A DNA stretch of 37,127 nucleotides from Pelagibacterales bacterium SAG-MED31 (GTDB lineage Bacteria > Pseudomonadota > Alphaproteobacteria > HIMB59 > GCA-002718135). The stretch spans positions 1-37,127 of the forward strand of contig JACWEB010000008.1 in assembly GCA_014653715.1 (NCBI GenBank). Reading direction: 5' to 3'. A model generated the notes under the pieces. The model worked only from the letters and a program-made list of their open reading frames with translations, did no database searches and had not been told where the DNA came from. The translations under genes and the position numbers were made by a program. Below are positions 19,987 through 36,996 of this stretch, piece after piece (positions within the stretch are counted from its first letter, which is position 1; each line of letters opens with the position of its first letter).

Positions 19987-20922
19987 CTAAGCTTTATATT
20001 TCTTTAATAATTTTTGTAAATCGATTAAAAAATTATCTCTTAAATTGGCTAGATTTTTAATAGATTTTTTATTGGATTGAATTTTTGTGCCTTCTATAAT
20101 TTTTTTCTTTAGACTATTTGTTAATTTTGGCGCCTTAAGCTTTGTCCAAGGTAATTTTAAAGCAGGACCAAATTGTTCTAGCATATGCTTCATGCCCATT
20201 TCACCACCTGCTAAATGAAAAGTTAAAAAAGTACCCATTAAAGACCATCTCAGACCAGGTCCGTAAATTATGGCGTCATCTAAATCTTTTGTAGATGCAA
20301 ATCCTTCATTAATTATATGCAATGATTCTCTCCACATAGATTCTTGTAATCGGTCAGATAAATATCCTGGTAACTCCTTTTTTAAAATCAATGTTTTCAT
20401 ACCGATTTTGGTATAAAATTTATTTGCTTTTAAAATAATTTTTTTAGCTGTTTTTTTACCTGGTACTATTTCTACTAAAGGTAAAAGATAAACTGGATTA
20501 AAAGGATGTGCTATTAATACCCTTTCTGGATTTTTTGCTTTGGATTGTATTCTAGAAGGTAATAGTCCTGATGAACTAGAAGCAATAATTGAGTTTTTTT
20601 TAGTATGTATACTTATTTCCTTTATTATCTTTATTTTCAATTTCTCATTTTCTGGAGTATTTTCTTGTATTAGATCTGCGTCAGATACAGCTTCTTTTAT
20701 TGAACTGCAAAATTTTAATTGATTATTTATATTAATATTATTTTTATAATATTTTTTTAATAAAGGTGATGTTCTTTTCAGTTCATCTAATAAAAATTTT
20801 TTTTGTTTATCACTTGGATCAAAAATTTTAATATGTTTTTTATTAAATAAAAATCTTAATATCCATCCAGTGCCTATAACTCCAGTTCCAACAACTGCAA
20901 TTTTATTTATAGAGGATTGCAT
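19987..20922 (-). CDS. lcdH: L-carnitine dehydrogenase (carnitine 3-dehydrogenase)
   Basis: The protein has 311 residues, the expected length. It is a 3-hydroxyacyl-CoA-dehydrogenase-fold enzyme that oxidises L-carnitine with NAD+ to 3-dehydrocarnitine. The NAD site is GTGVIGTGW (12-20), IQENTPENEKLK follows, then SSSSGL (from 115) and the catalytic His139 in AHPFNPVYLLPLVEIVPG. The region RLQESMWRESLHI and the YGPGLRWSLMGTF / HLAGGEMGMKHM stretch is characteristic of carnitine dehydrogenases and not of fatty acid FadB-type enzymes. It sits one base from the BKACE gene, the next pathway step, which strongly supports the call. Confidence 0.9.
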   Translation of the reverse strand: MQSSINKIAVVGTGVIGTGWILRFLFNKKHIKIFDPSDKQKKFLLDELKRTSPLLKKYYKNNININNQLKFCSSIKEAVSDADLIQENTPENEKLKIKIIKEISIHTKKNSIIASSSSGLLPSRIQSKAKNPERVLIAHPFNPVYLLPLVEIVPGKKTAKKIILKANKFYTKIGMKTLILKKELPGYLSDRLQESMWRESLHIINEGFASTKDLDDAIIYGPGLRWSLMGTFLTFHLAGGEMGMKHMLEQFGPALKLPWTKLKAPKLTNSLKKKIIEGTKIQSNKKSIKNLANLRDNFLIDLQKLLKKYKA

Positions 20923-20923
20923 T

Positions 20924-21814
20924 TTAAAATTGTTTTTTTATGTTTAATTTTTTTCTTGCTTGTTCTGGGTTAAGAATTTTTGAACCAAGATCACTTATGA
21001 TTCTTGCTGCTTTTTCAACTAATTGAGCATTTGATGCAAGCACTCCTTTTTCTAAATATAAATTATCTTCTAATCCCACTCTAACATTACCACCTAAAAT
21101 AACAGATTGTGCAACCATAGGCATTTGATATTTTCCAATGCCAAATCCAGCCCAGTTAGCTTCATCTGGTATCATATCTGCCATGACTTTCATTGAAGCT
21201 GTATTTGCAGGTGATCCCCAGGGTATACCTAAACAGATTTGATATAAAGGAGGTGAGTCAACTAATTCTTCTTTATAAAGCTGATTAGCAAACCATAAAT
21301 GCCCCATTTCAAAAGCCTCCATTTCTGGTTTTATTCCTAAGTCTTGCATTTTTTTTGCTGCAGCTCTCAATTGAACGGGAGTATGAATAAAGGTCATATT
21401 TGCGTCACCAAAGTTTAATGAACCGCAGTCCAATGTACAAATCTCTGGTAATAATTCTTCAACATGCTCAAGTCTGTCTAAAGCATGTATCATATCTGTG
21501 TTTGGACCAACTGGATTAAGTGGATCTTTACCTTCCCCAACTTCAAAATCACCCCCCATACCAGTTGTAAAATTAATAATTACATCAGTATCTGAAGAAC
21601 GAATTCTATCTGCAACCTCTTTGTAGTATTCTAATTTTCTACTTGGTTTCCCATCTGGTTCTCGTACATGAATGTGCGCAACTGCCGCCCCAGCTTTAGC
21701 AGCTTCAATAGATGCTTCTGCAATTTGTTTTGGTGTAATAGGCAAATCAGGGTGTTTACTGACAGTATCCCCAGATCCTGTTACAGCACAACTAATTATA
21801 ACTTCATTATTCAT
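20924..21814 (-). CDS. 3-dehydrocarnitine cleavage enzyme (BKACE, DUF849 family)
   Basis: The protein has 296 residues. Beta-keto acid cleavage enzymes are Zn-dependent and transfer from acetyl-CoA. Zn ligands are His47 and His49 ([10 protein letters not shown]) and Glu249 ([11 protein letters not shown]), equivalent to the His-x-His/Glu set of Kce. [20 protein letters not shown] and GHLWFANQL are typical. Next to lcdH, the expected reaction is 3-dehydrocarnitine plus acetyl-CoA giving betainyl-CoA and acetoacetate, as known for carnitine-associated BKACEs. It is the first gene of a leftward three-gene operon and is divergent from the thioesterase gene, with 43 bases between them. Confidence 0.9.
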
Positions 21815-22325: not shown

Positions 22326-22895
22326 TTAAAGACCCAGATAAACGTGTTTGTGTGGTTCTCTATCAAATATTCTGTGAACCATTGGTATAAATTCTTCTAA
22401 TTTTATAGTATTATAAATAGGATCAAAAGAATTTTGATCATAAGTTTCACAAAATTTAATTGTATCATTATAAAAAGGATGTCCAATATATTTATCTCTT
22501 AAGTTTCTGTCCTGTCCATAATGGTGATTGTAATAATATGATTGAAACAGTCCATGCTGCTGAACAATCCAATGAGTTTTTTCAGTTACAAATGGTCTTA
22601 AAACTGCTGCAGAAATTTCAGCATGATTTAAAGGAGCTATTTCATCTCCAATATCATGAAGAAGAGATGCTACAATCATTTCTTCATCTGCATTATCTCT
22701 AAGTGCTCTTGAGGCAGCTTGTAACGAATGCTCCAATCTAGAAATTTTATAACCACCCAATGATGAATTAAGATTTTTTAAGATACGAATTACTCTCTCT
22801 GCTGTACCTTCAATATATTTATCTTCAAATTTTGCTAAAAGGTCATAATCTTCTTTATCACCATCTTTCATTTCAACAAATTTTACTTTTTCCAT
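22326..22895 (-). CDS. HD-domain mixed-valent diiron oxygenase-like protein (PhnZ/TmpB/MIOX relatives)
   Basis: The protein has 189 residues. The motif SRLEHSLQAASRA with His56, SLLHDIGD with His80-Asp81, then His91, His114 (QQHG) and Asp153 (CETYDQNSFDP) give the six-ligand diiron set of the oxygenase branch of HD proteins. The block LEHSLQ-16 residues-SLLHD closely matches PhnZ. PhnZ and TmpB cleave the C-P bond of 1-hydroxyphosphonates; TmpB yields glycine betaine. By hand alignment the PhnZ pair Tyr24/Glu27 is not conserved (Leu/Tyr here), so the substrate may differ. It ends the aminotransferase-MFS-GNAT operon. A plain phosphohydrolase is less likely. Confidence 0.75.
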   Translation of the reverse strand: MEKVKFVEMKDGDKEDYDLLAKFEDKYIEGTAERVIRILKNLNSSLGGYKISRLEHSLQAASRALRDNADEEMIVASLLHDIGDEIAPLNHAEISAAVLRPFVTEKTHWIVQQHGLFQSYYYNHHYGQDRNLRDKYIGHPFYNDTIKFCETYDQNSFDPIYNTIKLEEFIPMVHRIFDREPHKHVYLGL

Positions 22896-22896
22896 C

Positions 22897-23346
22897 TTAA
22901 GTCTCTAAATAATAATTATAATATTCTTTGTCTCTTTCATAATCAAGCAATTCATATAAGGATTGAGCTTTTTTGTTGTTAATGCCCGTAGATAATTCAA
23001 TTATTTTTATTCTTTTTTTTATCGCGTAATCTTTTGCTTTTAACATTAGTTTTTTACCAATTCCTAATCTTCTATATTTTTTATCAACATACAGATCATA
23101 TAAAATTAATTTTTTATTAATATTTAATGAATCAAAAGTTTCATATAATTGAACAAATCCAGCCGCTTCAAATGATTTTGCGTAACAAATAAAAATAGTG
23201 GACTCTTTATTTAAAATTCTTTGCTTAATATAATTTGTTGATGCTTTTAGGTTTGATTTATACTTATAAAATTGTCTATATAAATCAAATAAGTGCCCAA
23301 CATCTTTAATGTGTTTAGAAGTTGCTTTTATAATTTTAATTCTCAT
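22897..23346 (-). CDS. GNAT-family N-acetyltransferase
   Basis: The protein has 149 residues. The acetyl-CoA pyrophosphate loop is YRRLGIGKKLM (motif A), preceded by LYDLYVDKK and followed by an ELSTGINNKKAQSLYEL block, typical of amino-group acetyltransferases. It overlaps the MFS gene by 11 bases and the HD gene follows one base later. The substrate is unknown; an amine handled by the neighbouring aminotransferase, or an aminophosphonate, would fit the context but neither is shown. Confidence 0.8.
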   Translation of the reverse strand: MRIKIIKATSKHIKDVGHLFDLYRQFYKYKSNLKASTNYIKQRILNKESTIFICYAKSFEAAGFVQLYETFDSLNINKKLILYDLYVDKKYRRLGIGKKLMLKAKDYAIKKRIKIIELSTGINNKKAQSLYELLDYERDKEYYNYYLET

Positions 23347-24520
23347 TTTTTTTTAACAATGATCTTATTATTCCAAATATTATACAAATAATTACAAAGC
23401 TTGACAAAGTATAAATAAAACCAGAGTTTCCATATATACTCATATTAAACCCAACTATGATTGGCCCTAAATACTCTCCTAATTCATAAATAATTATAAA
23501 GAGTGATGTAGCAAAAGCTATATCAGTCACTTTAATTCTCTCGCCTAAATAAGCGAGCGTTACAGTATAAAGGCTAGTAGATGCAAATCCACTTATCATT
23601 AAAGCAAGAATAATTAGATATGGATTTGAATTAGAAAAGTTTAATAATATTAACCAACAAATATGAGAGAATAGAAGTAAAAAAATAATTATTCTTTTAT
23701 TAAAATTATCAGATAAAGCTCCTATAAAAGGCTGACAGAGTACACCAAATATCCCGCCAACAAATATATACAAACCAATTTGTTTATCTGTAAATAAATC
23801 ATTAATCATAAAAGCTGGAAACAAAGCTAAAAAAGAGGAATCTTCTATTCCTGCGCAAAATATAGCAAAAAATACAAAAGGAGATATTGTAAGTATTGAG
23901 AATTTCATCTTAGAAGATTGTTTCGGAATAATAACTCGGTCAATAAATTTTTTTATACTTATTAGGCTTATAATTTTAAATCCTACAAGTATCATGCATA
24001 CTATTAAAGGTATCCTGCTAGATGTTCCCAGTATTCCAACAATCAATGGGCCAAGTGCCAATCCGGCTGTTACAGATGAATTATAAATACCTATAGATTT
24101 ACCTCTATTAGAATTATTGGATACAATATTAACCCAAGTATCCATTGTCATCCATGTTAGACCGCCCATAATACCAAATACAAAAAAACACATTGATAAA
24201 ATGATTGGATGTAAAAACTCAAGCATTAATATGATACATAACCCTTGGGTTGTAGCTGATATAAAAATTATTTTATAAAAACCAAATTTTTTTAAAAGTT
24301 TAGTGACAAAAAATCCTGAAAATATTAGCCCTAATGGACCAAAAGAAGCCACTGAACCAATTAGAAATTCTGAATAACCTGCATATTTTTGAAGTATTAC
24401 TAATACAGTATAAAAATAACTAATTATTATTCCTGTACAAAAAGCAACTAATGATAGATATTTTATACTTGAGTTTACAATATTGAAGTCTAAATAGTTC
24501 TTTAGACTATTTAAAATCAT
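23336..24520 (-). CDS. Major facilitator superfamily transporter
   Basis: This 394-residue protein has about 12 hydrophobic segments in two halves separated by a basic loop near residue 195. The loop after helix 2 reads GFFVTKLLKKFG, and the second-half equivalent is QPFIGALSDNFNKR, the MFS A-motif. The FGIMGGLTWMTMDTWVN stretch suggests the YcaD-like drug/metabolite branch. It overlaps the aminotransferase gene by 4 bases (ATGA), so they are translationally coupled; uptake or export of the aminotransferase substrate is plausible. Confidence 0.82.
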   Translation of the reverse strand: MILNSLKNYLDFNIVNSSIKYLSLVAFCTGIIISYFYTVLVILQKYAGYSEFLIGSVASFGPLGLIFSGFFVTKLLKKFGFYKIIFISATTQGLCIILMLEFLHPIILSMCFFVFGIMGGLTWMTMDTWVNIVSNNSNRGKSIGIYNSSVTAGLALGPLIVGILGTSSRIPLIVCMILVGFKIISLISIKKFIDRVIIPKQSSKMKFSILTISPFVFFAIFCAGIEDSSFLALFPAFMINDLFTDKQIGLYIFVGGIFGVLCQPFIGALSDNFNKRIIIFLLLFSHICWLILLNFSNSNPYLIILALMISGFASTSLYTVTLAYLGERIKVTDIAFATSLFIIIYELGEYLGPIIVGFNMSIYGNSGFIYTLSSFVIICIIFGIIRSLLKKNEN

Positions 24521-25899
24521 TTATTTTGTGCCCAAAGCCCCTCAGTTTTTAATTGGTTAATTGTATTTGAAATTGCTTGATATAATTTTTCTGTAAGTTC
24601 ATTAATTTGTTCTTTATTTATTATTAGGGCAGGGGAGAGTACACAAATATGATAAAGAGGTCTAATTATTAAACCTAATTTAATTGACTCTTCGTCAATC
24701 CTGGATCCTATTGCTTTATCTAAAACTAGTGCTTCCTTACTATCTTTGTTAATTACACATTCTATGCCAGCCATTAAACCTTTGCCTCGTATGTCACCTA
24801 CTATTGGTAATTCATATAATGAGTTAAGTTTTTCAAAAAAATAAGGTTCAATTTCTTTTACATGTTCTAAAATTTTATCCCTTTTAAGTATTTCTATGTT
24901 TTTTAGTGCTGCTGCACAACATGCAGGATGACCAGAGTAAGTATATCCATGAAAAAACAAAGATGAGTCATTTTTTAAATCAGATATCAACTTATTTGAA
25001 AACAAAACTGCTCCTAATGGCAAATATCCTGAAGTAATACCTTTTGCGCAAGTAATAATATCAGGCACGACTTCAAAAATTTCTTCTGAAGAAAAAAAAT
25101 GGCCAAGTCGGCCAAATCCAGTTACTACCTCATCTGCTATAAAAATTATTTCATTTTTTTTACATACATCATAGATTTTTTTAAAATATCCATCAGGTGG
25201 TACTATACATCCTCCAGATGCAAGAACAGGCTCAGCAATAAAAGCTGCAATATTTTCAGACCCTAATTCTTCAATTTTTTGTTCAAATTCTTTTACTAGT
25301 TCGTCACAAAAATCTTGAACAGTTTGATCTTTTGCCCGTCTATATGGAAGAGGTGAACTAAGATGATGGATAAAGTTTTTTTCAAAATCAAAACTATTTT
25401 TTTCTCTGTCTTTACCCGTAATTGATCCAGTTAAATAGGTGCTACCATGGTAAGCTTTATCCCTTGTAATTATATGTTTTTTATTTGGTCTGCCCAAGAT
25501 GTTATTATAAAACATTACAAATCTTAATGCTGTCTCATTAGCTGTTGACCCATCAGAAGTGAAAAAAACTGTATTTAAATCTCCTGGTGATAGGTCTGCT
25601 AATACTGATGCTAATTCAGCAGAAACTTCATTTGACTCAGAAAAAGGACTACAGTAATCCATTTTTTCAATTTGATTTTTAATTGCCTCACCAATTTCTT
25701 TATTTCCATGACCTATATTATTGCACCACATTCCGCCTGGACCATCTATGAATTTATTACCATTCTCATCGTATAAATAGATATTATCAGATTTAGTTAT
25801 TAATTTTCTATTGTAAGTACCTCTACTATTAAAATCTTCATAAGGATGGAGTACTAATTTGTCTTTTTCATAAATTTCAGAAATATAATCATTTTTCAT
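24517..25899 (-). CDS. Class III omega-aminotransferase (PLP)
   Basis: The protein has 460 residues. The PLP Lys is Lys286 in ITCAKGITSGYLPLG and the ring-binding Asp256 is in FIADEVVTGFGR. GPGGMWCNNIGHG and FFTSDGSTANETAL (phosphate-binding) match the omega-amino acid/polyamine:pyruvate aminotransferase branch (BauA, SpuC, Tpa-like). It likely moves a terminal amino group from an amine such as beta-alanine, GABA, taurine or putrescine; the donor cannot be read. It is the first gene of a leftward operon preceded by an operator shared with the BetI-like repressor region. No SD precedes its ATG. Confidence 0.85.
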   Translation of the reverse strand: MKNDYISEIYEKDKLVLHPYEDFNSRGTYNRKLITKSDNIYLYDENGNKFIDGPGGMWCNNIGHGNKEIGEAIKNQIEKMDYCSPFSESNEVSAELASVLADLSPGDLNTVFFTSDGSTANETALRFVMFYNNILGRPNKKHIITRDKAYHGSTYLTGSITGKDREKNSFDFEKNFIHHLSSPLPYRRAKDQTVQDFCDELVKEFEQKIEELGSENIAAFIAEPVLASGGCIVPPDGYFKKIYDVCKKNEIIFIADEVVTGFGRLGHFFSSEEIFEVVPDIITCAKGITSGYLPLGAVLFSNKLISDLKNDSSLFFHGYTYSGHPACCAAALKNIEILKRDKILEHVKEIEPYFFEKLNSLYELPIVGDIRGKGLMAGIECVINKDSKEALVLDKAIGSRIDEESIKLGLIIRPLYHICVLSPALIINKEQINELTEKLYQAISNTINQLKTEGLWAQNK

Positions 25900-25916
25900 T
25901 TCATGAGCACATTATC

Positions 25917-25942
25917 ATTCACTGAATAAGCATTCAATGAAA
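25917..25942 (-). promoter_or_regulatory. Operator/promoter before the aminotransferase operon
   Basis: Four alternating half-sites, ATTCA-C-TGAAT-AAGC-ATTCA-A-TGAA, fill this gap. Read on the complement, TTGAATGCTTATTCAG matches 13 of 16 positions of the palindrome at 34233-34248. TTGAAT is followed after 15 bases by GATAAT, a -10-like element that ends 11 bases before the ATG. It is probably bound by the BetI-like repressor encoded at 34309. Confidence 0.6.
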
Positions 25943-25955
25943 ATTAATTATTTAA

Positions 25956-26732
25956 TTACTTATCTTGCCAATTAGGATCAGTTTTTTTTACAAATGAAGA
26001 CGCCCCTTCTTTTAAATCCTGACTTCCATAGACTTTTTTAACAGTTTCTAAGGATCTTAAAATTTTAAAAGAAGAAATCTCTTTTTCATTTTCTGTTTCA
26101 CGCAAAACTTCTTTTATTGAAGAATAAATTAAATTAGGTCCATTTGAAATTTTTTCTGCTATTTTCCAAGCTCTTTTTAATAAATCATTTTTATTAATAG
26201 TTTCATTAATCAAACCCCAATGCTTAGCTTCTTTTGTATCCATCCATCTTCCAGTCATTAAAAACTCTACTGCTACGTGATAAGGTATTCTCCTCCTTAA
26301 TTTTATTGTAGCTGCATCCGCAACGACTCCTACATTAATTTCAGGTAAAGCAAATGTTGCATGTTCAGATGCTATAATAATATCTGCTGAAATCATAATT
26401 TCAAAACCACCGCCACAAGCAATGCCATTTACGGCAGCAATAATAGGTTTATTCATATTGGGTAATTCTTGTAATCCTCCAAATCCCCCAACTCCATAAT
26501 CAGCGTCTGCAGCTTCTCCCTCATCAACGGCTTTCAAATCCCATCCAGCTGAAAAAAATTTTTCTCCAGCTCCAGTTATAATTGCAACTTTAAGATCTGA
26601 ATTATCTCTAAAATCAGAAAATATGTCACCTAATATAATGCTTGTCTTAGCATCAATGGCATTAGCTTTTGGGCGATCAATAGTAACCTCTAAGATTGAG
26701 CCTTCAATTTTTGTTTTAACTGGTTTATCCAT
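25956..26732 (-). CDS. caiD: Carnitinyl-CoA dehydratase / crotonobetainyl-CoA hydratase (CaiD)
   Basis: This 258-residue crotonase-fold protein is unusually close to E. coli CaiD: GSILEVTIDRPKANAIDAKT (11-30), IITGAGEKFFSAGWDLKA (oxyanion hole) and GGGFE with Glu111, plus FALPE with Glu131. These two Glu fall at the same residue numbers as the catalytic pair I recall for E. coli CaiD. It should interconvert crotonobetainyl-CoA and carnitinyl-CoA. Unlike the E. coli operon there is no CaiB CoA-transferase or AMP-forming CaiC; an NDP-forming acyl-CoA synthetase and an acyl-CoA dehydrogenase lie directly upstream. It is the last gene of the six-gene operon. Confidence 0.88.
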   Translation of the reverse strand: MDKPVKTKIEGSILEVTIDRPKANAIDAKTSIILGDIFSDFRDNSDLKVAIITGAGEKFFSAGWDLKAVDEGEAADADYGVGGFGGLQELPNMNKPIIAAVNGIACGGGFEIMISADIIIASEHATFALPEINVGVVADAATIKLRRRIPYHVAVEFLMTGRWMDTKEAKHWGLINETINKNDLLKRAWKIAEKISNGPNLIYSSIKEVLRETENEKEISSFKILRSLETVKKVYGSQDLKEGASSFVKKTDPNWQDK

Positions 26733-28772
26733 CTAATTTTTAAAATAATGTATTAATGCATCAGCGGCAAATACACCTTTTCCTTTTTCACATATTATTA
26801 ATGGATTTATATCAACTTCTGAAATGTTATTTGAGTTTTTTTCCGCAAAATTTGCTAATTTTAATATAGTATTTATTAAAGAGTCTATATCCCCACCTTT
26901 TTTTCCCCTAAAACCAAATAATATTTTACTAAATTTTAGTTTTTTAATCTCTTCAAGTATTATTTTTTTAGTTAAAGGTAAAAGGAGTGTGGTTGTTTCA
27001 TTAAATAACTCTGTATATATCCCTCCTGCTCCTAAAATTAATGTCGGTCCAAACTGACTATCATTTTTGATTCCTATGATCATTTCAAAAACTTTATCTG
27101 TTATCATTTTTTCAATAAGTATCTTATTTTTAAATTTATTTGTTTTTTTCTTTAATTCTTTTTCACTATTTATATTTGTTACTACACCGCCAATCTCAGT
27201 TTTATGGAAAACCGTATTAGAATTTATTTTTGCAACTAAAGGAAAACCAATTTTTTTATAATCACACAAAATATCTTTTTTATTTGTAATTAAAGATTTA
27301 GGTATAGATATTTTAAACTTTTTTAAGATTAGTTTTGATTCATATTCTGTAATGGTTTTTGTTTTCATCTCAAGATTGTTTATTTTTTGTGAAATTTTTA
27401 TATCAAAACAATTTCTCCATGCCTTTGCAATTTTTATTGAATTACTTATTGCTATTAAACTTTCTGACATACCTTGAAGAGGTACAACTCCTGATTTAAA
27501 ACATTTTTTTCTTAAATACTTAGGAAGAGTATCTACAAGAGAAGAAATAATCACTCCATTTTTTTTTATTTTTGATGATTTGATAAATTTATCAACTATA
27601 TCATCCCATTCTGCAGTGTCACAATCTTCTATATTTGGAAAATCTAACATTAATGCATTTAGTCCAAAATTTGTTTTAAACATTAATTTAAATGTTTTTT
27701 CTAATTGCTCAGGATCATTCCAATTGTATGTTTGTAAATCAAATGGGTTTGAAATTATAACACTTGGATGGTTAACTTTTTTTAAACTTTTTTTAATTTT
27801 TGGATCTATTTTACCAAAGTTCAACGAGAGTTTATCAGCTACATCTCCTATCATAGCCATATCACCACCAGATGGACCCATTATTGCAATTTTATCATTA
27901 TTTATCGCTCCATGAGTATGAAATAATTTTAAACTTTCACATAATTCCCCTAAGGTATTACATCTTGCAACACCCATTCTATTAAAAACAGAGTCATGGA
28001 TGTCCTCTTTTCCACTAAGGGCCCCAGTATGTGTTAAAATTGTTTGAGACGCGATTTTAGATCTTCCTACCTTTACTATTGCTATTGGTGTTTTTTTAAT
28101 TCTAGATTTTTTAAAAACTTTTATTAATTTTTCTGCATTAGTAAAACTTTCCGCATATATTCCAATAGCTGTGACTCTATTATCATCTAGTACATAATTT
28201 ATTGTATCTTCTATAGTTATTTGTGCCTGATTACCCAGGGAAATTATATATCCTATTGGTAAAGATCTATCATTAAAGCTGATTGTGTTTCCAATAGTTC
28301 CACTTTGACAAATAATTGCAACTCCTTTTTTTGTGGGCTTACCTGCTACTTGATCAGACCAAACAGAAACTTTATCTAAGTAGTTTATATATCCGTAACA
28401 ATTTGGTCCAAGAAAAGGCATTTTACCAGCATTAGAAATTAATTGTTTGGTTTTTCTACTCCCTTCTTTAGAATTTAGTTCTGAAAATCTAGAGGCTAAA
28501 CAAACAGTACCACCAGCACCTATCTCAGAAATCTCTTTAATTAATTTTACAGTTAAATCACTGGATACTGCTAGATAAACACAATCTGGTACTGCAGGTA
28601 GATCTTTGATGCTTTTATAATATTTTTTTTTCTTTGAGCTTTTTCTTGATGGATTAATGTGCCAAACTTTACCATTAAAACCTATTGTTTTATTTCCTTC
28701 ATAAACAAAATCTGCCCAATACCCGCCAACGATTGCAAGACTTTTTGGTCTAAAAAGTTTTTTTAAATTCAA
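26733..28772 (-). CDS. NDP-forming acyl-CoA synthetase (fused alpha-beta, ATP-grasp)
   Basis: The protein has 679 residues. Order of parts: CoA-binding Rossmann domain (SLAIVGGYWA, PFLGPNCYG), succinyl-CoA-ligase-like domain with Glu208 (YAESF) and the phosphorylated His248 (ILTHTGALSGKE), then a C-terminal ATP-grasp domain (from about 460; YESKLILKKFKI, FPLVAKINS, ILGAGGIYTELF, DINPL). It makes an acyl-CoA from acid, CoA and ATP through a phospho-His. Directly before caiD and after an acyl-CoA dehydrogenase, it probably activates gamma-butyrobetaine, crotonobetaine or carnitine in place of CaiC/CaiB; a different acid is possible. Confidence 0.85.
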   Translation of the reverse strand: MNLKKLFRPKSLAIVGGYWADFVYEGNKTIGFNGKVWHINPSRKSSKKKKYYKSIKDLPAVPDCVYLAVSSDLTVKLIKEISEIGAGGTVCLASRFSELNSKEGSRKTKQLISNAGKMPFLGPNCYGYINYLDKVSVWSDQVAGKPTKKGVAIICQSGTIGNTISFNDRSLPIGYIISLGNQAQITIEDTINYVLDDNRVTAIGIYAESFTNAEKLIKVFKKSRIKKTPIAIVKVGRSKIASQTILTHTGALSGKEDIHDSVFNRMGVARCNTLGELCESLKLFHTHGAINNDKIAIMGPSGGDMAMIGDVADKLSLNFGKIDPKIKKSLKKVNHPSVIISNPFDLQTYNWNDPEQLEKTFKLMFKTNFGLNALMLDFPNIEDCDTAEWDDIVDKFIKSSKIKKNGVIISSLVDTLPKYLRKKCFKSGVVPLQGMSESLIAISNSIKIAKAWRNCFDIKISQKINNLEMKTKTITEYESKLILKKFKISIPKSLITNKKDILCDYKKIGFPLVAKINSNTVFHKTEIGGVVTNINSEKELKKKTNKFKNKILIEKMITDKVFEMIIGIKNDSQFGPTLILGAGGIYTELFNETTTLLLPLTKKIILEEIKKLKFSKILFGFRGKKGGDIDSLINTILKLANFAEKNSNNISEVDINPLIICEKGKGVFAADALIHYFKN

Positions 28773-28775
28773 AGA

Positions 28776-29927
28776 TTACGCTCCAAGTGGTCTTAAAAGT
28801 GAACGCGATATAATATGTCTTTGAATTTCACTTGTACCTTCCCAAATTCTCTCTATTCTTGCATCTCTCCATATTCTTTCAAGAGGAATGTCAGACATAA
28901 GACCCATCCCTCCACATATTTGGATAGCTTCGTCAGACACTTTTCCAACCATTTCAGTGCAAAATAATTTTGTCATTGCAGCATCTTGAGAGGAGAGGGT
29001 GCCTTGATCTATTTTCCAAGCTGATTCTAAAAGCATTAAGTTTGCTGCCTTTATACTTGTTGCCATATCTGCTAATTTAAAAGAAACTCCTTGAAATTTA
29101 CCAATCACTTTTCCAAATTGTTTTCTATTAGCGGACCAATCAAGAGCAATATCAAATGCACGTTCAGCTCTTGAAACAGAAGTTGCAGCAACTGTTAATC
29201 GAGTTGCTTCTAACCAAACATTCATCAATTCAAAACCTTTATCCTTTTCACCTAAAATGTTTTTTCCAGGTATTCTACAGTCATTAAAATTTATAACATT
29301 ATTTACATATCCTCTATGAGAAACACATTCATAGCCTTTAGCTACTTCAACACCTTTTTGATGAAGGTCAACCAAGAAACATGATAATAAATTTCTTCCA
29401 TGCTCATCTGTTCCAGTTGAGGCAAATAAAACAACAAAGTCAGATATATGAGCATTTGATATAAAATGTTTAGTTCCATTGATTATCCAATCATCACCAT
29501 CTTTTTTTGCATTTGTTTTCATTCCTCTCAGATCAGAACCAGCCTCAGGTTCAGTCATCGCAATACAATCTTTTCTTTCACCAGTAATGGCAGGTTTCAA
29601 ATATTGATCAATTAATTCCCCTTCACAGGCCATTAAGATATTTTGTGGACGCCATGCAATTTCAGCTAAGGCGAGAGATGCAAAACCTAAATGTTTTTCA
29701 ACTAAAGTTAATTCAAAAGCATTTAAACCCCCTCCACCATGTTCAACTGGCATATTGCAAGCATACAAACCAGCATCAATACTTTTTTTCTTAATTTGAT
29801 TATATAGTTCTTTAGGTAGATTATTTGTTTTTTCTAAAAGTTCTTCATGTTGAAGTAATTCTGTTTTAACAAAAGCTTTAGTTGTATTTATTAAAAGATT
29901 TTGCTCTTCTGTAAGATTAAATTCCAT
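28776..29927 (-). CDS. Acyl-CoA dehydrogenase
   Basis: This 383-residue FAD enzyme has AMTEPEAGSDLRGMKT (flavin/substrate loop), FISNAHISDF, RKQFGKVIGKFQGV, QICGGMG and the C-terminal IWEGTSEIQR, where Glu363 is in a catalytic-base position used by several family members. It lies 3 bases upstream of the acyl-CoA synthetase gene and two genes before caiD, so desaturation of gamma-butyrobetainyl-CoA to crotonobetainyl-CoA is a reasonable guess. It is not especially close to E. coli CaiA (which ends GGSDEMQ at this site), so another CoA ester is possible. Confidence 0.85.
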   Translation of the reverse strand: MEFNLTEEQNLLINTTKAFVKTELLQHEELLEKTNNLPKELYNQIKKKSIDAGLYACNMPVEHGGGGLNAFELTLVEKHLGFASLALAEIAWRPQNILMACEGELIDQYLKPAITGERKDCIAMTEPEAGSDLRGMKTNAKKDGDDWIINGTKHFISNAHISDFVVLFASTGTDEHGRNLLSCFLVDLHQKGVEVAKGYECVSHRGYVNNVINFNDCRIPGKNILGEKDKGFELMNVWLEATRLTVAATSVSRAERAFDIALDWSANRKQFGKVIGKFQGVSFKLADMATSIKAANLMLLESAWKIDQGTLSSQDAAMTKLFCTEMVGKVSDEAIQICGGMGLMSDIPLERIWRDARIERIWEGTSEIQRHIISRSLLRPLGA

Positions 29928-29928
29928 T

Positions 29929-31116
29929 TTATATATCAGCAGGTACCTTATGCCGTCTTGGTGGGTTAAAAAACTGTTTTTTTACAACTAAACACTCAGC
30001 CCATATTTTTTTATATTCTAATTCTTCAGGATGATATATTTCAGCAAAAACTTTTGATCCAATTTTCATATGGTTGTTATCAACATAACCAAAAGCTATA
30101 TTTGATTTTAAGCTTGGTGACCACATACCGGCTGTGACAATTCCAATTTCTTTTTTATTTTTATCATATAAAACTGAACCAATAGCAGGTTTGTCACCTT
30201 GAATATCTAGACCGACTAATTTTTTATTTAAAGGTTTATTTTGTAGATCAATCAGATTTTTTTTTCCGGTAAAGTAGTTTTTATTTAAATCAACCAACCA
30301 TCCCATACCTAGCTCAAATGGAGTCCTCATTCTATTTGGTCGCAATGCTTGCTCAGCAGACATAAAGTCTGCATTAGGCTGAATAAAACCTGCTTCAATT
30401 CTAACCATTTCTAGTGCATTCATGCCTGCGGCCAAAACCTTATAGTCTCTATTGAATTTAAATAGTGAGTCCCAAACATTTAACGCATATTCAGGTCTAC
30501 ACCAGATTTCATAGCCTAAATCTCCAGAAAATCCAGTTCTAGATATAGTAACTTTTGAACCATTAAGATCAAAATTATCAAAGAAAAACGGCTTTAGATT
30601 TTCTATATTCTTAACATTTAATAAATGTAAAATTTTACAAGAGAGAGGTCCTTGAAATGCTAAAGCAGCAATAGAGTCACTAACATCGTTAACTTCTACG
30701 TCAAAACCAATAGCTGTATCAGAAAACCAATTCAAATTTCTCTCTGCACAAAAGATTCGTAAATGATTAGTGTCAAAACAAAAGACAGTACCATCATCGA
30801 TAACATTTCCGTCTTCATTACACCAAATAATATACATTACTTTATTAGGTTTGATTTGTGTTACATCTCGTGTGACTAATTTATCTACAAATTTAATAGC
30901 ATCATTTCCTTTGATATCATATTTGTGCATTGGCGTTATATCTAAAACTCCTGCTGTATTTCGCATAGAAGTGTATTCTAGTTCAGTATTAGAATACTCT
31001 CTTGCAATTTTATATCCAGCCCAACGATACCAATCATTATTATAACAAGCTTCAAAAGTTCTTTTATGAAAAGGGGTTTCCAGAAGAGGTTTTGTAAATG
31101 AAAATGTATTAACCAT
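29929..31116 (-). CDS. GcvT-like aminomethyltransferase family protein (possible THF-dependent demethylase)
   Basis: The protein has 395 residues. The T-protein fold is shown by MRNTAGVLDITPMHKYDIKG, NEDGNVIDDGTVF (Asp107-Asp108 at the folate site), ALAFQGPLS, TGFSGDLGYEIW (Glu203) and ALEMVRIEAGF. The tail FFNPPRRHKVPADI is seen in the family of standalone GcvT paralogues common in marine alphaproteobacteria, which includes the DMSP demethylase DmdA and N-methyl demethylases. No GcvH or GcvP is nearby, so it is not housekeeping glycine cleavage. It probably moves a methyl or methylene group from a methylated amine to tetrahydrofolate; the substrate is open. Confidence 0.8.
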   Translation of the reverse strand: MVNTFSFTKPLLETPFHKRTFEACYNNDWYRWAGYKIAREYSNTELEYTSMRNTAGVLDITPMHKYDIKGNDAIKFVDKLVTRDVTQIKPNKVMYIIWCNEDGNVIDDGTVFCFDTNHLRIFCAERNLNWFSDTAIGFDVEVNDVSDSIAALAFQGPLSCKILHLLNVKNIENLKPFFFDNFDLNGSKVTISRTGFSGDLGYEIWCRPEYALNVWDSLFKFNRDYKVLAAGMNALEMVRIEAGFIQPNADFMSAEQALRPNRMRTPFELGMGWLVDLNKNYFTGKKNLIDLQNKPLNKKLVGLDIQGDKPAIGSVLYDKNKKEIGIVTAGMWSPSLKSNIAFGYVDNNHMKIGSKVFAEIYHPEELEYKKIWAECLVVKKQFFNPPRRHKVPADI

Positions 31117-32588
31117 TACCTTTATCCTTTAGTAATTGTTTAGCAGCATTAACTCCATTAATACCTGTAATACCCCCTCCTGGATGAGTGCCTGCACTAC
31201 ATAGATATAAGCCATTAATTGGGGTGGAATATTGAGAAGACCCATAAAATGGACGCATCATTAAAAGTTGATCTATCTCCATATCTCCGTGACTCCAGTG
31301 ACCACCTGTAATATTATATTTACTTTCAATATCATTAGGAGTTTCAATTATTGAAGAAACAATTTGATTTTCTTCAATAAATTTTTCTAAAATTAAATTA
31401 ACATTTGTTAATATTTTTTCTTTATCATGTGAAGACTCTCTTAAATAAGGTATAAAATAGACATTTGCAGATAATTTATTTTTATTAATATAAAATTCCA
31501 AACAAGGATTTGCTGATAATTTATTATACTTATTAGTATTAAAAGCATGTTCTATATATTTTATATTTGGAGCATAAACAAATTTACCCGATAAATATTT
31601 TGAGTCTAAATTTTTAATTTTTATCTCATGTTTAAATTCAATATTGACTTTAGCTACTGTACCTCTGGTGCGATAATTATTTGTTCTTCTTGTAAAGTCT
31701 GTATCCAAATTAGAAGCTCCAACTAATTCTAAATAAGTTGTTTTTGGATCTGAATTTGAGATTATTGTAGATGTTTCAATTTGTTCTCCCGTATTAAGCA
31801 AAACTGAATTAACACTCTGGTTTGAAATGTTAATTTTTTCAACTGTTTTATTAGTTTGAAACTCAACATTATTTTTTTTTACAAATATTCTCAACGGAAT
31901 TTAAAAATGAGTTTGTATTAAATTTGTTAATTCTAAATAATGAATTATTTGTAGCTTGGTTATACAATAAATTTAATATTGATCCAGGAGATCTTGCGCC
32001 AAGGTTTGTTCCAATAACAGCCTCATTAGATATTAAACCCTTTAAAATGTTGTTTTCTATATTGTCCTCTAAATCATCTGCAATATTTAAACCTATCACT
32101 CGTAATAATTCTCGCATGTTTTTTTTTCCAAGACGTCTGACTTTTAAACCCATTGAAAATAATTGCCAAATATCAGATCTTGAACCTGATTTAACTCTTG
32201 GTGGTTTTTTAAACATAAACGATCTTAAGGTTCTTGCAAATAAATCATATTTATTAACTAAGTTAATAAAACTTTTTTTATCAGAGTCACTTGCACTTGT
32301 TTGTAAAAATTGAACATTTTTACTTCCATTTATTTTTAACACAGTATGATTTAAATCTTCAGACAAAGCAGAAATAAAATTATCGCTTATATTCTTTTCA
32401 ATAGTAATGTTTAATTCTTTTAAAATTTCTTGAGAAATATCACTTAAGTACTCGACATAATTAGCAAGGCCACCTAATTTTTCATTCTTTTCTATCACTA
32501 GAACTTTTTTTCCTTTTTTTGATAAAACACATGCAGCAACCAAACCATTGTGTCCTCCACCTATAATTATAACATCAAATTTTTTCAT
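31109..32588 (-). pseudogene. FAD-dependent oxidoreductase (COG1233, PYROXD2-like), split by a one-base frameshift
   Basis: Frames 32588-31869 and 31894-31109 together encode about 492 residues of a phytoene-desaturase-fold flavoprotein. The N-terminal part has IIIGGGHNGLVAAC (FAD) and VIEKNEKLGG; the C-terminal part has LYLCSAGTHPGGGITGINGVN, the second FAD motif. The break is at a T-run at 31872-31880 (A9 on the coding strand); 8 A would give a continuous CKKNNVEF. It is a diverged tandem paralogue of the next upstream gene (542 residues) and overlaps it by 4 bases. It may be a sequencing indel, decay of a redundant copy, or slippage. No carotenoid genes accompany it. Confidence 0.78.
31872..31880 (-). 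other. Homopolymer frameshift site in the COG1233 paralogue
   Basis: Nine consecutive T (A9 on the coding strand) separate two frames that join if one base is removed. Seen directly. Confidence 0.78.
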
Positions 32589-34213
32589 ATATAATGTGTA
32601 TTAATTTGTTTTTTTAGATCTATTAAAATTTCTCTTGCTGCATTTGCGCCTGGTGCACCCATTACTCCTCCACCTGGATGTGTGCTAGATCCACACATGT
32701 ATAGATTTTTAATTGGAGTTTTGTACTGAGCGTAACCTGGTACTGGTCTATTAAACATTAACTGATCCATAGTCAGCTCTCCTTGGAAGATATTGCCTTC
32801 AGTTAATCCAACTTCTTCTTCAAGTTCTTTTGGTGTTCTTATTTCAGCATGTTTTATAATGTCATTAAAATTTTCAGAATATGAACCAATTCTATTCATA
32901 ACATGTTTTCCAAATTCTAATCTTTTTTCTTCAGTCCACCCACCATCTGCAAGATTGTATGGAACGTATTGAACAAATACTGACATGTAATGTTTTCCTT
33001 GTGGGGCCATTGTTGGATCATTAATACTTGGAATGCACATATCTACATAAGGTAATTGAGACCATCTTCCATCTTTCCAATCATCATAAGCACCTTCCAT
33101 TTCTTCTATACTTTGTGTAATATGAAGGTCTCCTGTTCCTGCAGGGTCTCCCTCCGGTATACTTTTCCAAATAGGTAAATCATCAAGAGCAATATTTAAC
33201 TTTCCTGATGATCCTCTTATTTTAAAATTTTTTACTGCATTATAAAAATCATCAGGTATATTTTCTTTTTCTACAACTTTAAGAAAAGTTCTTTTTACAT
33301 CTAGATTAGAAACTAGCTTATCAGCAAATATTTCATCACCATTTTCTAGCACAACACCATGGCTACGATTATTTTTAATTAATATTTTAGTTACTGGGGA
33401 TCCCGCAATAATATCGCCACCACTTGCTTTTAGTGAAGCAGCCATAGCTTGCGTGATTGAACCCATTCCTCCACGCGAATACCCCCACGCACCAACTGTT
33501 CCATCTACTTCACCCATATAATGGTGCAGTAATACATAAGCTGACCCAGGAGAATAAGGTCCTAAAGCAGTACCTATTATTGCCGAGCCTGCCATATGAG
33601 CCTTTACAACATCTGACTCAAAATATTCTTCTAAATAATCACGAACACTCATCGTCCAAAAACGAATAGTGTCATAAATTTCTTTTTCACCTAATCCGCC
33701 CAATTCATCTTTTGCAGCAAAAAATTTTGCAAAATCAAAAAGACCCATAATATCTTTCGGCCTAAATGAAGTTGGGTCTGGAGGGGTCATTTTTAACAAT
33801 GGTTTTATTATTTTACATTGTCTCATTACATCTTTGCTAAATCTTTCATAAGCCTCAGCATCTTTTTTGGAAAACTTTGCAATAGAGCGATAATTAAGAT
33901 CATGGTCACTGTAATGTGCATAAAATCGTCCATCATCAAGCATTGTAGCACTACCTTCATATGGAATGATTTGAAGACCATACTTTGAAAGTTCCAAATC
34001 CCTAAAAATTTCTGGTCTAAGCAAGCTACATACATATGAGCAATTTGAATAAGTCCATCCTGGGTGAAGCTCCCTGCTTACAGCTGCACCACCAACATAA
34101 CTATGCCGTTCAATTACTGCTACTTTTAACCCAGCTTTAGCTAAATAACATGCAGTTGTAAGTCCATTATGACCACCGCCTATAATAGCTACATCATATT
34201 TAGTTTTTGGCAT
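32585..34213 (-). CDS. FAD-dependent oxidoreductase (COG1233, PYROXD2-like), intact copy
   Basis: The protein has 542 residues. It has the N-terminal FAD motif AIIGGGHNGLTTACYL (Gly12-Gly17) with Glu35 in VIERHSYVGGAA, and the C-terminal NLYMCGSSTHPGGGVMG with GAPGANAA. The fold is that of amine oxidase/phytoene desaturase flavoproteins, and this subgroup (related to PYROXD2) has few characterised members. It is the first gene of the six-gene leftward operon with GcvT-like, acyl-CoA and CaiD enzymes, so oxidation of an amine or its derivative fits better than carotenoid synthesis. Its ATG follows a -10-like TATAAG by only 8 bases, suggesting a leaderless transcript. Confidence 0.82.
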   Translation of the reverse strand: MPKTKYDVAIIGGGHNGLTTACYLAKAGLKVAVIERHSYVGGAAVSRELHPGWTYSNCSYVCSLLRPEIFRDLELSKYGLQIIPYEGSATMLDDGRFYAHYSDHDLNYRSIAKFSKKDAEAYERFSKDVMRQCKIIKPLLKMTPPDPTSFRPKDIMGLFDFAKFFAAKDELGGLGEKEIYDTIRFWTMSVRDYLEEYFESDVVKAHMAGSAIIGTALGPYSPGSAYVLLHHYMGEVDGTVGAWGYSRGGMGSITQAMAASLKASGGDIIAGSPVTKILIKNNRSHGVVLENGDEIFADKLVSNLDVKRTFLKVVEKENIPDDFYNAVKNFKIRGSSGKLNIALDDLPIWKSIPEGDPAGTGDLHITQSIEEMEGAYDDWKDGRWSQLPYVDMCIPSINDPTMAPQGKHYMSVFVQYVPYNLADGGWTEEKRLEFGKHVMNRIGSYSENFNDIIKHAEIRTPKELEEEVGLTEGNIFQGELTMDQLMFNRPVPGYAQYKTPIKNLYMCGSSTHPGGGVMGAPGANAAREILIDLKKQINTHYI

Positions 34214-34218
34214 TTTGA

Positions 34219-34248
34219 TTTCTTATATTTCTTTGAATGACCATTCAA
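34219..34248 (-). promoter_or_regulatory. BetI/TetR-type operator overlapping the promoter of the six-gene operon
   Basis: A perfect 16-base palindrome, TTGAATG-AC-CATTCAA (34233-34248), lies in the 95-base divergent gap. On the complement, TTGAAT is followed after 15 bases by TATAAG, 8 bases before the operon's ATG. The same arrangement occurs at 25917-25942. It resembles published BetI sites in having TTGAA/TTCAA arms. Confidence 0.65.
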
Positions 34249-34308
34249 CCAAATTCCTTGTAAAAACATTAATTTTATGAAAAAATCACATATTTTTTAA
34301 TAAAAATA

Positions 34309-34932
34309 ATGTCTAGTAAAAATCAAAGATCTAAAAATAAAAAAAATAGTAATTTAAGACTTATATCTTCTACAATTAAAAACTTATCAAAAAAAGGAAT
34401 AAATGATCTTACTATGAATGATGTCTCTCAAGGAGCGGGATTATCACAAGGCATAGTAAATTTTCATTTTAAAAGTAAAGAATTACTTTTAATTGAGACT
34501 CTAAAATTTATTTCAAATGAATATCTGACTTCATTTGATAAATATTTAAAAAAAGCAGGAGATGATCCAAAACTTAAAATAATAAATATGATAGAAAATG
34601 ATTTTAGTTCTAAAATTTGCTCACCAGAAAAAATTTCTGTTTGGTTTACGTTCTTTAGTGAAATTAAATTTAAACCAGCTTATAGGCAGATTTGCAGAGA
34701 AAGAGATTTGTATTATCAAAATGTGACAGAGGATATTTTTTCTGAACTAATTAAGAGAGAAAAAAACAACTTATCTAAAAAAAGTTTATCTATAGCATTT
34801 CAGTCTTTAATAATGGGTTTATGGTTAAATCAGTTAGATGAACCATCTAAATTTTCTAAATCTGAGTCAAAAAAAATATGTATCGATTATCTGAAAACTC
34901 ATTTCCCTAAACAGTTTAGTAGGTACTCTTAA
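34309..34932 (+). CDS. TetR-family transcriptional regulator, BetI-like
   Basis: The protein has 207 residues. The N-terminal HTH is seen in INDLTMNDVSQGAGLSQGIV followed by NFHFKSKELLLIETL, the TetR recognition helix region. The C-terminal ligand domain has VWFTFFSEIKFKPAYRQICR, which resembles the WLAFW...P...R pattern of BetI, the choline-sensing repressor. A perfect palindrome lies 61 bases upstream in the divergent gap. It overlaps the following acyl-CoA dehydrogenase gene by one base. It probably represses its own operon and the two leftward operons, with a quaternary amine or a CoA ester as inducer; the inducer is inferred. Confidence 0.85.
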   Translation: MSSKNQRSKNKKNSNLRLISSTIKNLSKKGINDLTMNDVSQGAGLSQGIVNFHFKSKELLLIETLKFISNEYLTSFDKYLKKAGDDPKLKIINMIENDFSSKICSPEKISVWFTFFSEIKFKPAYRQICRERDLYYQNVTEDIFSELIKREKNNLSKKSLSIAFQSLIMGLWLNQLDEPSKFSKSESKKICIDYLKTHFPKQFSRYS

Positions 34933-36107
34933 TGTATAGTGGAATGACAAAATCAGCCTTAGACTGGCAAGTCAAAATAAGAAAATTTGTTGATAAAGAG
35001 CTTATACCTTGGGAGGTTCACGCCGAAAAAAATTCTGGAAATTTACCACTTGATATTGAAAAAAAACATTCTCAAATAGCAATAAAGCTAGGGTTACCTG
35101 GTATGGGCATATCAAAAAATGAGGGTGGCTTAGGACTCTCAATGTTTGAGCAAATGGTTATATGGGAACAACTAGGAAGAGTAACGAATGCTTTATGTTG
35201 GTGTTTTTCTGAGGCGCAGGATTGGATGGAGGAAAATTTTACAGATGTTCAAAAAAAAAACTATTTATACCCATTATTAAAAGGAGAAAAAAAAGAATGT
35301 TACGCAATAACAGAAAAAGGTTCCGGTTCAGATGTTAATGGTTCTATAAAAGCTACTGCTGAATTTATTGATAATAATTATATTATTAATGGTGAAAAAT
35401 GGTATGTTACAAGCGCAAACAAAGCTGACTTCTTTTTTTTGCAAGCAAAATTAAAAAATGGAAAAAATAAAGATCATCATGCTCTTTTCATTGTTGATAA
35501 AAACCTCGATGGTATTGAATTAGTAGATACTCCAGAATTTAGTCATACTTTTTCTCATCATCATTGCATTTATAAATTTAGTAATGTTAAGGTTCCTTCA
35601 ACGCGCATCATTGGAAAAGAGGATGATGGAATGGCATATACGCACTCTTGGTTTCGTCATGAAAGACTGGGAATTGCTGCAAGATGTTGTGGTGCAGCTG
35701 AAAGATTAATAGATGAAGCTACTAAATTCGCAATGAATAGGGAAGCAAATGGCAGCAAAATAAAAGATTATCAATTAATTCAATCAATGTTAGCTGATAG
35801 CGTTACAGAACTTGCTGCTACTAGACTTCTGCTTTATGAAATATGTAAAGATCACGATAATAAAAAGGATGTTAAAATTTTACATGCTAAATGTTCAATG
35901 ATAAAGCTTTATGCATCAGAAATGGCAAATAGAGTTGCAGATCGTGCTGTTCAAATTTTTGGAGGAAGAGGGTACATGAGAGAAAATGTTGCAGAGAGGT
36001 TCTTCAGAGAACTAAGAGCTGATAGGATTTGGGAAGGGACTAGTGAGATTCAACGTATTATTATTGCTAATTCACTTTATAAAAGAGGTTTGGAGAATTT
36101 GATTTAA
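34932..36107 (+). CDS. Acyl-CoA dehydrogenase, second copy
   Basis: This 391-residue FAD enzyme has AITEKGSGSDVNGSIKA at the flavin/substrate loop (the usual E-P replaced by E-K), WYVTSANKADFF, NREANGSKIKDYQLI, QIFGGRGYMRENVAERF and IWEGTSEIQR with Glu368 as likely base. It differs clearly from the other copy at 28776, so it is not a recent duplicate and may act on another CoA ester in the same pathway. It lies between the BetI-like regulator (1-base overlap) and the Pot-type permease gene (4-base gap). Confidence 0.85.
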   Translation: MYSGMTKSALDWQVKIRKFVDKELIPWEVHAEKNSGNLPLDIEKKHSQIAIKLGLPGMGISKNEGGLGLSMFEQMVIWEQLGRVTNALCWCFSEAQDWMEENFTDVQKKNYLYPLLKGEKKECYAITEKGSGSDVNGSIKATAEFIDNNYIINGEKWYVTSANKADFFFLQAKLKNGKNKDHHALFIVDKNLDGIELVDTPEFSHTFSHHHCIYKFSNVKVPSTRIIGKEDDGMAYTHSWFRHERLGIAARCCGAAERLIDEATKFAMNREANGSKIKDYQLIQSMLADSVTELAATRLLLYEICKDHDNKKDVKILHAKCSMIKLYASEMANRVADRAVQIFGGRGYMRENVAERFFRELRADRIWEGTSEIQRIIIANSLYKRGLENLI

Positions 36108-36111
36108 TGCT

Positions 36112-36996
36112 ATGATTTCTACACTTCAAAAAATTTATGTCAAAAATGATCAGTTAAAAGCATATTCTTTATTATCTCCTGCATTAGTTTTAATTATTAT
36201 AGCTATGGCAGCACCCATGCTTGTTATGATTATTACAAGTTTTAATACACAAGTTTCAATGGTGGAAATTGATAGAACTTTTACTTTTGACAGATATGAA
36301 GATTTTTTTACAAAACCAATATTTTCAATGTTGTTATTTAGGTCAATTAAAATATCTTTCTTAGTAACTGTATTAACTCTTCTAACAACATACCCACTTG
36401 CCTACTATATCGCTTTTTATGTAAAAAAAAATAAAATGCTTTGGATAATTTTGATGACTTTACCATTTTGGACAAGTTATTTATTAAGAGTTTTTTCTTG
36501 GAAAGTTATTTTAGGAAATAAAGGAGTAATTAACTCTGCCCTTGTTGGCTCAGGTTTAATTGATGAACCTCTTGGTTTTTTACTTTATAATCAAGGTGCT
36601 GTAGTTCTAACTTTAGCCCATGCTTGGGCTGCATTTGCTATTTTACCTCTTTATGTATCTTTGGATAAGATAGATAAATCGTTGCTTGAAGCTTCTTATG
36701 ATTTGGGTAATTCAAAATTTGAAACTTTTATACGCGTTACATTGCCTTTATCTTTACCAGGAATAATTGGAGCTATTCTTATTATTTTTATACCTACTGT
36801 CGGAGATTATGTTACTCCTCAAATGGTTGGGGGCACTGATGGTAGAATGCTCTCTAATATGATCCAAAGTTTATTTGGTAGAGCTAATAATTTTCCTCTA
36901 GGTGCAGCATCTGCTGTTTTAATGCTTTCATCTGTTTGTATAATTGCAGGTATAGTTACCTATATTACTAAAAAATTAACCTTGAGAATGTCATAA
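36112..36996 (+). CDS. Polyamine-type ABC transporter permease (PotB-like)
   Basis: The protein has 294 residues and about six membrane helices. The ATPase-contact EAA loop reads LLEASYDLGNSKFETFIRV, followed by TLPLSLPGI. VGDYVTPQMVGG and LPFWTSYLLRVFSWK are strong PotB/PotH signatures of spermidine/putrescine-type importers. Substrates of this family also include other cationic amines. The ATPase and binding protein are not in the window and may lie to the right. Being in the operon of the BetI-like regulator suggests that it imports the inducer or substrate of this cluster. Confidence 0.88.
   Translation: MISTLQKIYVKNDQLKAYSLLSPALVLIIIAMAAPMLVMIITSFNTQVSMVEIDRTFTFDRYEDFFTKPIFSMLLFRSIKISFLVTVLTLLTTYPLAYYIAFYVKKNKMLWIILMTLPFWTSYLLRVFSWKVILGNKGVINSALVGSGLIDEPLGFLLYNQGAVVLTLAHAWAAFAILPLYVSLDKIDKSLLEASYDLGNSKFETFIRVTLPLSLPGIIGAILIIFIPTVGDYVTPQMVGGTDGRMLSNMIQSLFGRANNFPLGAASAVLMLSSVCIIAGIVTYITKKLTLRMS

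Follow-up and report, generated by a model that had tools for sequence, protein, structure and literature searches.

Two leftward operons in contig JACWEB010000008.1 of Pelagibacterales bacterium SAG-MED31 (assembly GCA_014653715.1), whose 37,127 nucleotides were analysed as a whole and are called the window here, are preceded by closely similar 16-bp sequences, and the gene of a TetR-family regulator lies beside one of them. Are these two sites, A and B, operators of that regulator, and what would it control? Site A is set between FAD1, a flavin adenine dinucleotide (FAD)-dependent oxidoreductase gene that is the first of its leftward operon, and the divergent TetR gene. Site B lies within the 56-nt gap between an enoyl-CoA hydratase gene and a class III aminotransferase gene, and therefore may serve an internal promoter of a single long leftward cluster. 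An initial annotation of this DNA had claimed that the minus-strand sequences of A (TTGAATGGTCATTCAA) and B (TTGAATGCTTATTCAG) agree at 13 of 16 positions, that both share one promoter layout and that the regulator gene is divergent from A. The agreement, the coordinates and the layouts proved exact: the sites differ at positions 8, 10 and 16, and the order is TTGAAT, 15 nt, TATAAG, 8 nt and ATG at site A and TTGAAT, 15 nt, GATAAT, 11 nt and ATG at site B; the divergent regulator gene is borne out in the layout of open reading frames (ORFs). We hold with good confidence that A and B are operators of the neighbouring regulator, a local and probably autoregulated repressor of a polyamine and methylated-amine catabolic cluster, and the motif itself is very probably a real operator.

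Comparison of genomes at the level of sequence establishes the site, its conservation, its linkage to the regulator gene and the targets it shares. The exact palindrome TTGAATGNNCATTCAA was found in 19 of 102 genomes of the genus (own included), once per genome and beside the TetR gene, with no hit for the reversed control. The carriers of the TetR gene, called at E <= 1e-20, are the same 19 genomes (one of the genes is a fragment at a contig end), and none of the 83 others has the motif. In the own assembly (940 kb, 54% complete) the exact form TTGAATGNNNATTCA occurs at sites A and B only, again with no reversed-motif controls. Three extra carriers from another collection (L140, L141 and L147) brought the comparison to 22 loci with 16 distinct sequences. 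Site A is identical in all 22 save one central base, 15 of its 16 positions being invariant as against 42 of the 79 other intergenic positions. For site B, the figures are 12 of 16 positions against 12 of 40 (12 loci, 11 distinct), and it is kept, with at most 3 mismatches to the site A consensus, in all 15 loci that have the hydratase-aminotransferase junction (12/12 including the window, then 3/3); the locus of G050 is rearranged and has no such junction. The concerns raised in the initial annotation, that the motif might be common at random positions or be lost from relatives with the same genes, found no support for its exact form.

A third site extends the regulon. Among the matches listed, an almost identical palindrome turns up in eight relatives; it is on the contig of site A, 10.9-12.4 kb further on, at a position past the end of the window's contig. 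This site C lies between divergent genes, with both start codons 18-19 nt away. On one side a DAO-type FAD oxidase (best NCBIfam match L-pipecolate oxidase, below cut-off; PuuB-like by eye) leads genes for an agmatine deiminase and an N-carbamoylputrescine amidase, of which only the latter exceeds its cut-off. On the other side stands a Rieske oxygenase. Its top NCBIfam model is that of the glycine betaine monooxygenase GbcA, without reaching the cut-off, and the solved chains that match it best, 3vca and 4qup, are deposited as ring-hydroxylating dioxygenase and monooxygenase/demethylase; we take both to be stachydrine demethylase. Site C was present with at most 1 mismatch in all 13 relatives checked; ten of these loci were fetched because a motif copy showed, and three (G048, G077 and G089) without prior sight. 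Its invariance in the alignment arises by construction, the loci having been chosen by exact sequence, and is not counted as evidence. One candidate, G020:C5:77663, was rejected as site C, since its flanks are unlike those of the other nine copies and the site C of that genome sits on C38. Of the earlier claim of a regulon joining at least 13 genes, the operator common to both leftward operons and the divergent regulator is supported; the regulon goes beyond what could be seen there, because the window ends short of site C. Nine regions of 27-46 kb were also scanned with a position weight matrix (PWM), and wherever A, B and C are present they ranked top, with the target ATG 18-22 nt off; the matrix was derived from A, B and C themselves, and the scan shows only that stronger competitors are lacking.

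The linkage of motif and regulator reaches beyond the genus. With the regulator profile at E <= 1e-18, matches were found in 20 of 385 genomes of the class, own included, and upstream regions were analysed for 29 of the 34 non-own matches, the remaining five being without a locus. A homologous TetR gene is directly divergent from a FAD1 orthologue (59-65% identity) in G187, G326, G424, G451 and G492; other homologues adjoin Pot, PuuB-like, Rieske, aminotransferase, GcvT-like or acyl-CoA dehydrogenase genes. A match to another cluster protein, in some cases weak (23-25% identity), is present at 26 of the 29 loci, and at L219, L220 and L224 no other cluster gene was seen near the TetR homologue on the fetched locus. 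The strict genus motif lies upstream of 5/29 homologues within 2 mismatches and of 8/29 within 3. For 209 permuted palindromes the means were 0.06 and 0.29 and the largest counts 3 and 6, and the true half-sites at other spacers (0-8) gave at most 2 and at most 4, respectively. A relaxed consensus, TTGAAYGNNCRTTCAA, matches 9/29 within 2 mismatches against 0.09 expected; it was chosen after seeing the distant sites, and the fair test is the strict genus motif. One of the strict-motif matches is an exact copy in a region of 69-71% GC (L231/L241); it is flanked by the TetR gene and by a gene with weak similarity to the acyl-CoA synthetase, and a Rieske-like gene lies on the downstream side of the TetR gene. 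Tandem operator copies, one of them identical to window site B, belong to the FAD1 gene in two genomes of a single genus. The regulators with sites have in common the recognition-helix region GxxxGIVNF(H/Y)F(K/Q)SK, with small changes.

From this we infer that the TetR protein is the binder, that it represses its targets and its own gene, and to what class its effector belongs. A TetR dimer would bind the 16-bp palindrome, whose half-site is TTGAATG with a spacer of 2, and the outer TTGAAT would serve as, or overlap, the -35 region, roughly 30 nt upstream of the start codon. The effector-free regulator would block RNA polymerase at the FAD1 operon (A) and the aminotransferase operon (B) and, at site C, both at the divergent operon of the FAD oxidase and agmatine deiminase and at the Rieske oxygenase gene. 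Because site A is in the regulator's own upstream region, autoregulation is probable. Release would come from a substrate or intermediate of the encoded polyamine and methylated-amine catabolism. The operator ends 18-22 nt before the start codons and covers the place of the -35 region, a position that fits steric blocking of RNA polymerase. The short distance between operator and ATG may point to short leaders or none. Starts without a Shine-Dalgarno (SD)-like motif were rejected as proof of leaderless mRNA, since 27 of the 33 window starts checked are without one anyway and only 6 have it.

Two further elements near the operators are conserved. In the stretch 25917-25937, a conserved extra half-site GAATG (ATTCAGYGAATG) comes after site B on the minus strand; together with the two full tandem operators of FAD1 in another family (L245 and L246), it may point to the binding of two dimers. 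Between operator A and the TetR gene, TTTATGAAAAA (34274-34284) is invariant across the 22 loci and is perhaps the -10 region of the TetR promoter.

Several observations weigh against an operator of this kind or are uninformative. With up to 2 mismatches, the loose motif TTGAATGNNNATTCA is at chance level in the window (11 found against 15.6 expected, no enrichment). Copies with 1 mismatch are scattered, mostly in coding DNA, and are unspecific: among the matches listed they occur in 49 of 61 genus genomes, carriers included. Seven such copies outside A-C were checked, and six lie in ORFs (L110, L114, L122, L126, L128 and L129); the seventh, the own-genome copy C17:300 (L127), has no ORF of at least 60 amino acids over or near it and is unexplained. 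One recurrent form, TTGAGTGACCATTCAA, was seen in at least 17 genus genomes besides G001, and at the two places checked (L110 and L122) it falls within different ORFs; near-copies in G051:C26 and G067:C9 were likewise discarded as sites, being located inside an ORF. The -10-like hexamers at C stand 17 nt from TTGAAT in one direction and 19 or 14 nt in the other, so that the spacing over four promoter directions (15, 15, 17, and 19 or 14 nt) is inconstant; what is kept instead is the distance from operator to ATG, 18-22 nt. The earlier argument that identical -10 spacing makes chance unlikely thus breaks down at the third site; in DNA of this composition, moreover, 5 of 6 hexamer positions would match at a given place with a chance of about 0.04. 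Scans of 25800-34400 with consensus promoters and terminators were uninformative (37 promoters where 44.8 were expected, and 3 terminators where 3.5 were). Within the genus all sites are linked to the gene cluster, and their conservation is partly common descent. Outside it, even with up to 4 mismatches to the strict motif allowed, 18 of the 29 distant homologues lack an upstream match, and the operator is therefore not universal in the subfamily; one genus supplies 3 of the 5 best distant matches, and several homologues without a site found carry the same recognition-helix region. A weak fourth site, D (TTAAATAGACATTCAA, L255 10872-10887), lies between glutamine-synthetase (GS)-like and amidase-like genes (named by eye) in some relatives only (3/9 scanned regions; six loci).

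The loose matches and the cheap -10 hexamers would suit an origin by chance, palindromes and such hexamers being expected anyway in DNA of 29% GC. We nevertheless find this scarcely credible, as the exact motif and the regulator coincide perfectly over 102 genomes, a third copy sits at a divergent promoter and the motif recurs in regions of 56-71% GC in other families. It is improbable, too, that the sites are real but bound by another regulator, or that the TetR protein activates rather than represses. TetR-type activators are known, Vibrio harveyi LuxR being called both in the title of one paper (PMC2628434); the exact motif, however, is found only where the TetR gene is present and recurs upstream of part of the distant homologues, and its position over the promoter favours blocking. 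The initial annotation had called the regulon BetI-like, and the regulator could be a true BetI that represses osmoprotectant synthesis from the known betI box and responds to choline. The family and the BetI-type C-terminal domain stand (34.1 for TetR_N and 35.6 for TetR_C_6, over Pfam gathering cut-offs of 24 and 27), and BetI is the best-scoring named family, with 24% identity to E. coli BetI. Both BetI equivalog cut-offs, however, are missed (TIGR03384, 95.6 against 201.3 bits; NF001978, 89.6 against 118), while E. coli BetI, as a positive control, passes them with 268.3 and 303.9. Among the distant homologues, L209 and L231, whose sites are close, each pass one of the two, and the E. coli betI-betT intergenic region contains TTGATTGGACGTTCAA, one mismatch off the relaxed consensus; that intergenic sequence is readable either way. 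The window also has a choline-dehydrogenase-like gene at 14560-16188, which at 702 bits clears the subfamily cut-off of 605 though not the equivalog cut-off for betA. Its orthologues in G001 and G076 each have a one-mismatch copy, TTGAGTGAYCATTCAA, 55 nt upstream, within the ORF that precedes them. These copies (L110 9717-9732; L114 5079-5094) are the next-ranked PWM match and were treated as coding. In the window there is no copy above the scan threshold before this gene, and among the matches listed the other carriers have no one-mismatch copy there. No bet genes adjoin the regulator, its neighbours being FAD1, an acyl-CoA dehydrogenase and a PotB-like permease; the choline-dehydrogenase-like gene and an aldehyde dehydrogenase gene (best match PuuC, below cut-off) are 18 and 26 kb from it. 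Sites A, B and C head genes of polyamine and demethylation type, and the half-sites of the Ruegeria BetI1 box, as given in the available part of PMC12442346, are 4 bp closer together. A true BetI is accordingly unlikely, if a shade less so than another binder or an activator, and a separate repressor of amine catabolism remains our preferred reading. The boundary to BetI is soft, because two homologues pass one cut-off, E. coli has a one-mismatch relative of the relaxed consensus and the window holds a choline-dehydrogenase-like gene.

Coordinates of the probable operators, putative promoter elements and cluster genes in the window
Feature	Position	Strand	Remarks
Operator A, perfect palindrome TTGAATGACCATTCAA / TTGAATGGTCATTCAA	34233..34248	.	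19 nt to FAD1, 60 nt to TetR gene
Operator B, CTGAATAAGCATTCAA (reverse TTGAATGCTTATTCAG)	25922..25937	.	22 nt upstream of aminotransferase ATG
-10-like hexamer TATAAG, FAD1 operon	34222..34227	-	8 nt before ATG; putative, weak alone
-10-like hexamer GATAAT (many relatives: GATACT), aminotransferase operon	25911..25916	-	11 nt before ATG; putative, weak alone
TetR-family regulator, 207 amino acids, BetI-type C-terminal domain	34309..34932	+	TetR_N, TetR_C_6
FAD1, FAD-dependent oxidoreductase (CrtO/phytoene-dehydrogenase superfamily), first behind A	32585..34213	-	orthologue directly divergent from a TetR homologue in five other genomes
FAD2, second FAD oxidoreductase	31109..32588	-	two overlapping ORFs, 31869-32588 and 31109-31894
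GcvT-like aminomethyltransferase	29929..31116	-	closest NCBIfam model that for trimethylamine N-oxide (TMAO) demethylase (C-terminal half), followed by GcvT; no cut-off reached
Acyl-CoA dehydrogenase 1	28776..29927	-	profile matches
ADP-forming acyl-CoA synthetase-like protein	26733..28772	-	profile matches
Enoyl-CoA hydratase	25956..26732	-	best match crotonobetainyl-CoA hydratase, 287.6 bits against a cut-off of 500, unmet
Class III aminotransferase, first behind B	24517..25899	-	NF005447 above cut-off
Rest of site B operon	22326..24520	-	MFS transporter, 149-amino-acid ORF, HD-domain-like ORF; same order in relatives
Acyl-CoA dehydrogenase 2; permease resembling PotB but below its cut-off; both downstream of the TetR gene	34932..36996	+	profile matches

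The genes behind and beside the sites point tentatively to the uptake and breakdown of polyamine-like and N-methylated amines, because they include the PotB-like permease, agmatine deiminase, carbamoylputrescine amidase, GS-like, GbcA-like Rieske and GcvT-like proteins and acyl-CoA enzymes. The GS-like genes near the sites match GlnA best, with type III GS and gamma-glutamylputrescine synthetase next; no cut-off is reached. FAD2 is one open frame of 495-506 amino acids in 12/12 genus relatives, and its split in this genome would be a frameshift or an assembly error. In the site B operon, the 149-amino-acid ORF is a GNAT acetyltransferase by eye, and another ORF is weakly similar to HD-domain phosphonate oxygenases. 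Elsewhere in the window (8308-9447 and 19987-21814) lie genes resembling those for gamma-butyrobetaine dioxygenase and L-carnitine dehydrogenase, along with BKACE-type genes. None reaches its equivalog cut-off; they suggest that a branch from carnitine to betaine accompanies the regulon, and the PWM scan gave no operator copy above threshold near them.

No paper on this operator or regulon was found among the matches listed in literature searches, whose coverage leaves subscription journals largely outside. The regulon is ordinary in kind, and its members are new as far as those matches show. Tentatively, and as something we would put at rather less than an even chance, the regulators may form an undescribed BetI-derived subfamily in several alphaproteobacterial families, with the operator TTGAAYGNNCRTTCAA, that couples polyamine uptake and breakdown (Pot, agmatine deiminase, GS-like protein, DAO-type oxidase) with oxidative and folate-dependent N-demethylation (Rieske, FAD1/FAD2, GcvT-like protein), a route for an N-methylated amine not yet assigned. 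The system offers a compact regulon, open to test, in a marine lineage with small genomes, a genus we take to lie near AEGEAN-169/HIMB59; the operator marks the genes that belong to one amine-catabolism pathway and the regulator is a handle on the substrate, the releasing compound probably being a substrate or intermediate.

Among known systems, the half-site of the TetR-type FadR of Bacillus (TGAATGA...TCATTCA) resembles that of the window operator, with a wider spacing; the window TetR, however, gets only 23.7 of the 200 bits that the NCBIfam FadR model requires. The regulator shares with BetI of E. coli and BetI1/BetI2 of Ruegeria pomeroyi the TetR family, the BetI-type C-terminal domain and probably the control of amine catabolism (PMC12442346, available part), and with E. 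coli betI-betT the divergent position of the regulator gene; it differs from BetI in failing both equivalog cut-offs and in targets with sites that are not betBA or betT. In the same part of that source, BetI1 has half-sites of the TTGA...TCAA type, similar in kind to those here, and protects 29 bp that take in the -35 box, the blocking of RNA polymerase being proposed, as we propose here; its box, ATTGACG*CGTCAAT, is shorter than the window operator of 16 bp with a spacer of 2. AguR of Pseudomonas aeruginosa is described, in the available part of PMC4287709, as a TetR repressor that binds between -35 and -10 of the aguBA promoter, where it blocks RNA polymerase, and that agmatine releases. 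The window regulator resembles that description as a probable TetR repressor over a promoter, with an AguA/AguB-like pair behind site C, whereas the regulon here has several promoters and demethylation-type genes.

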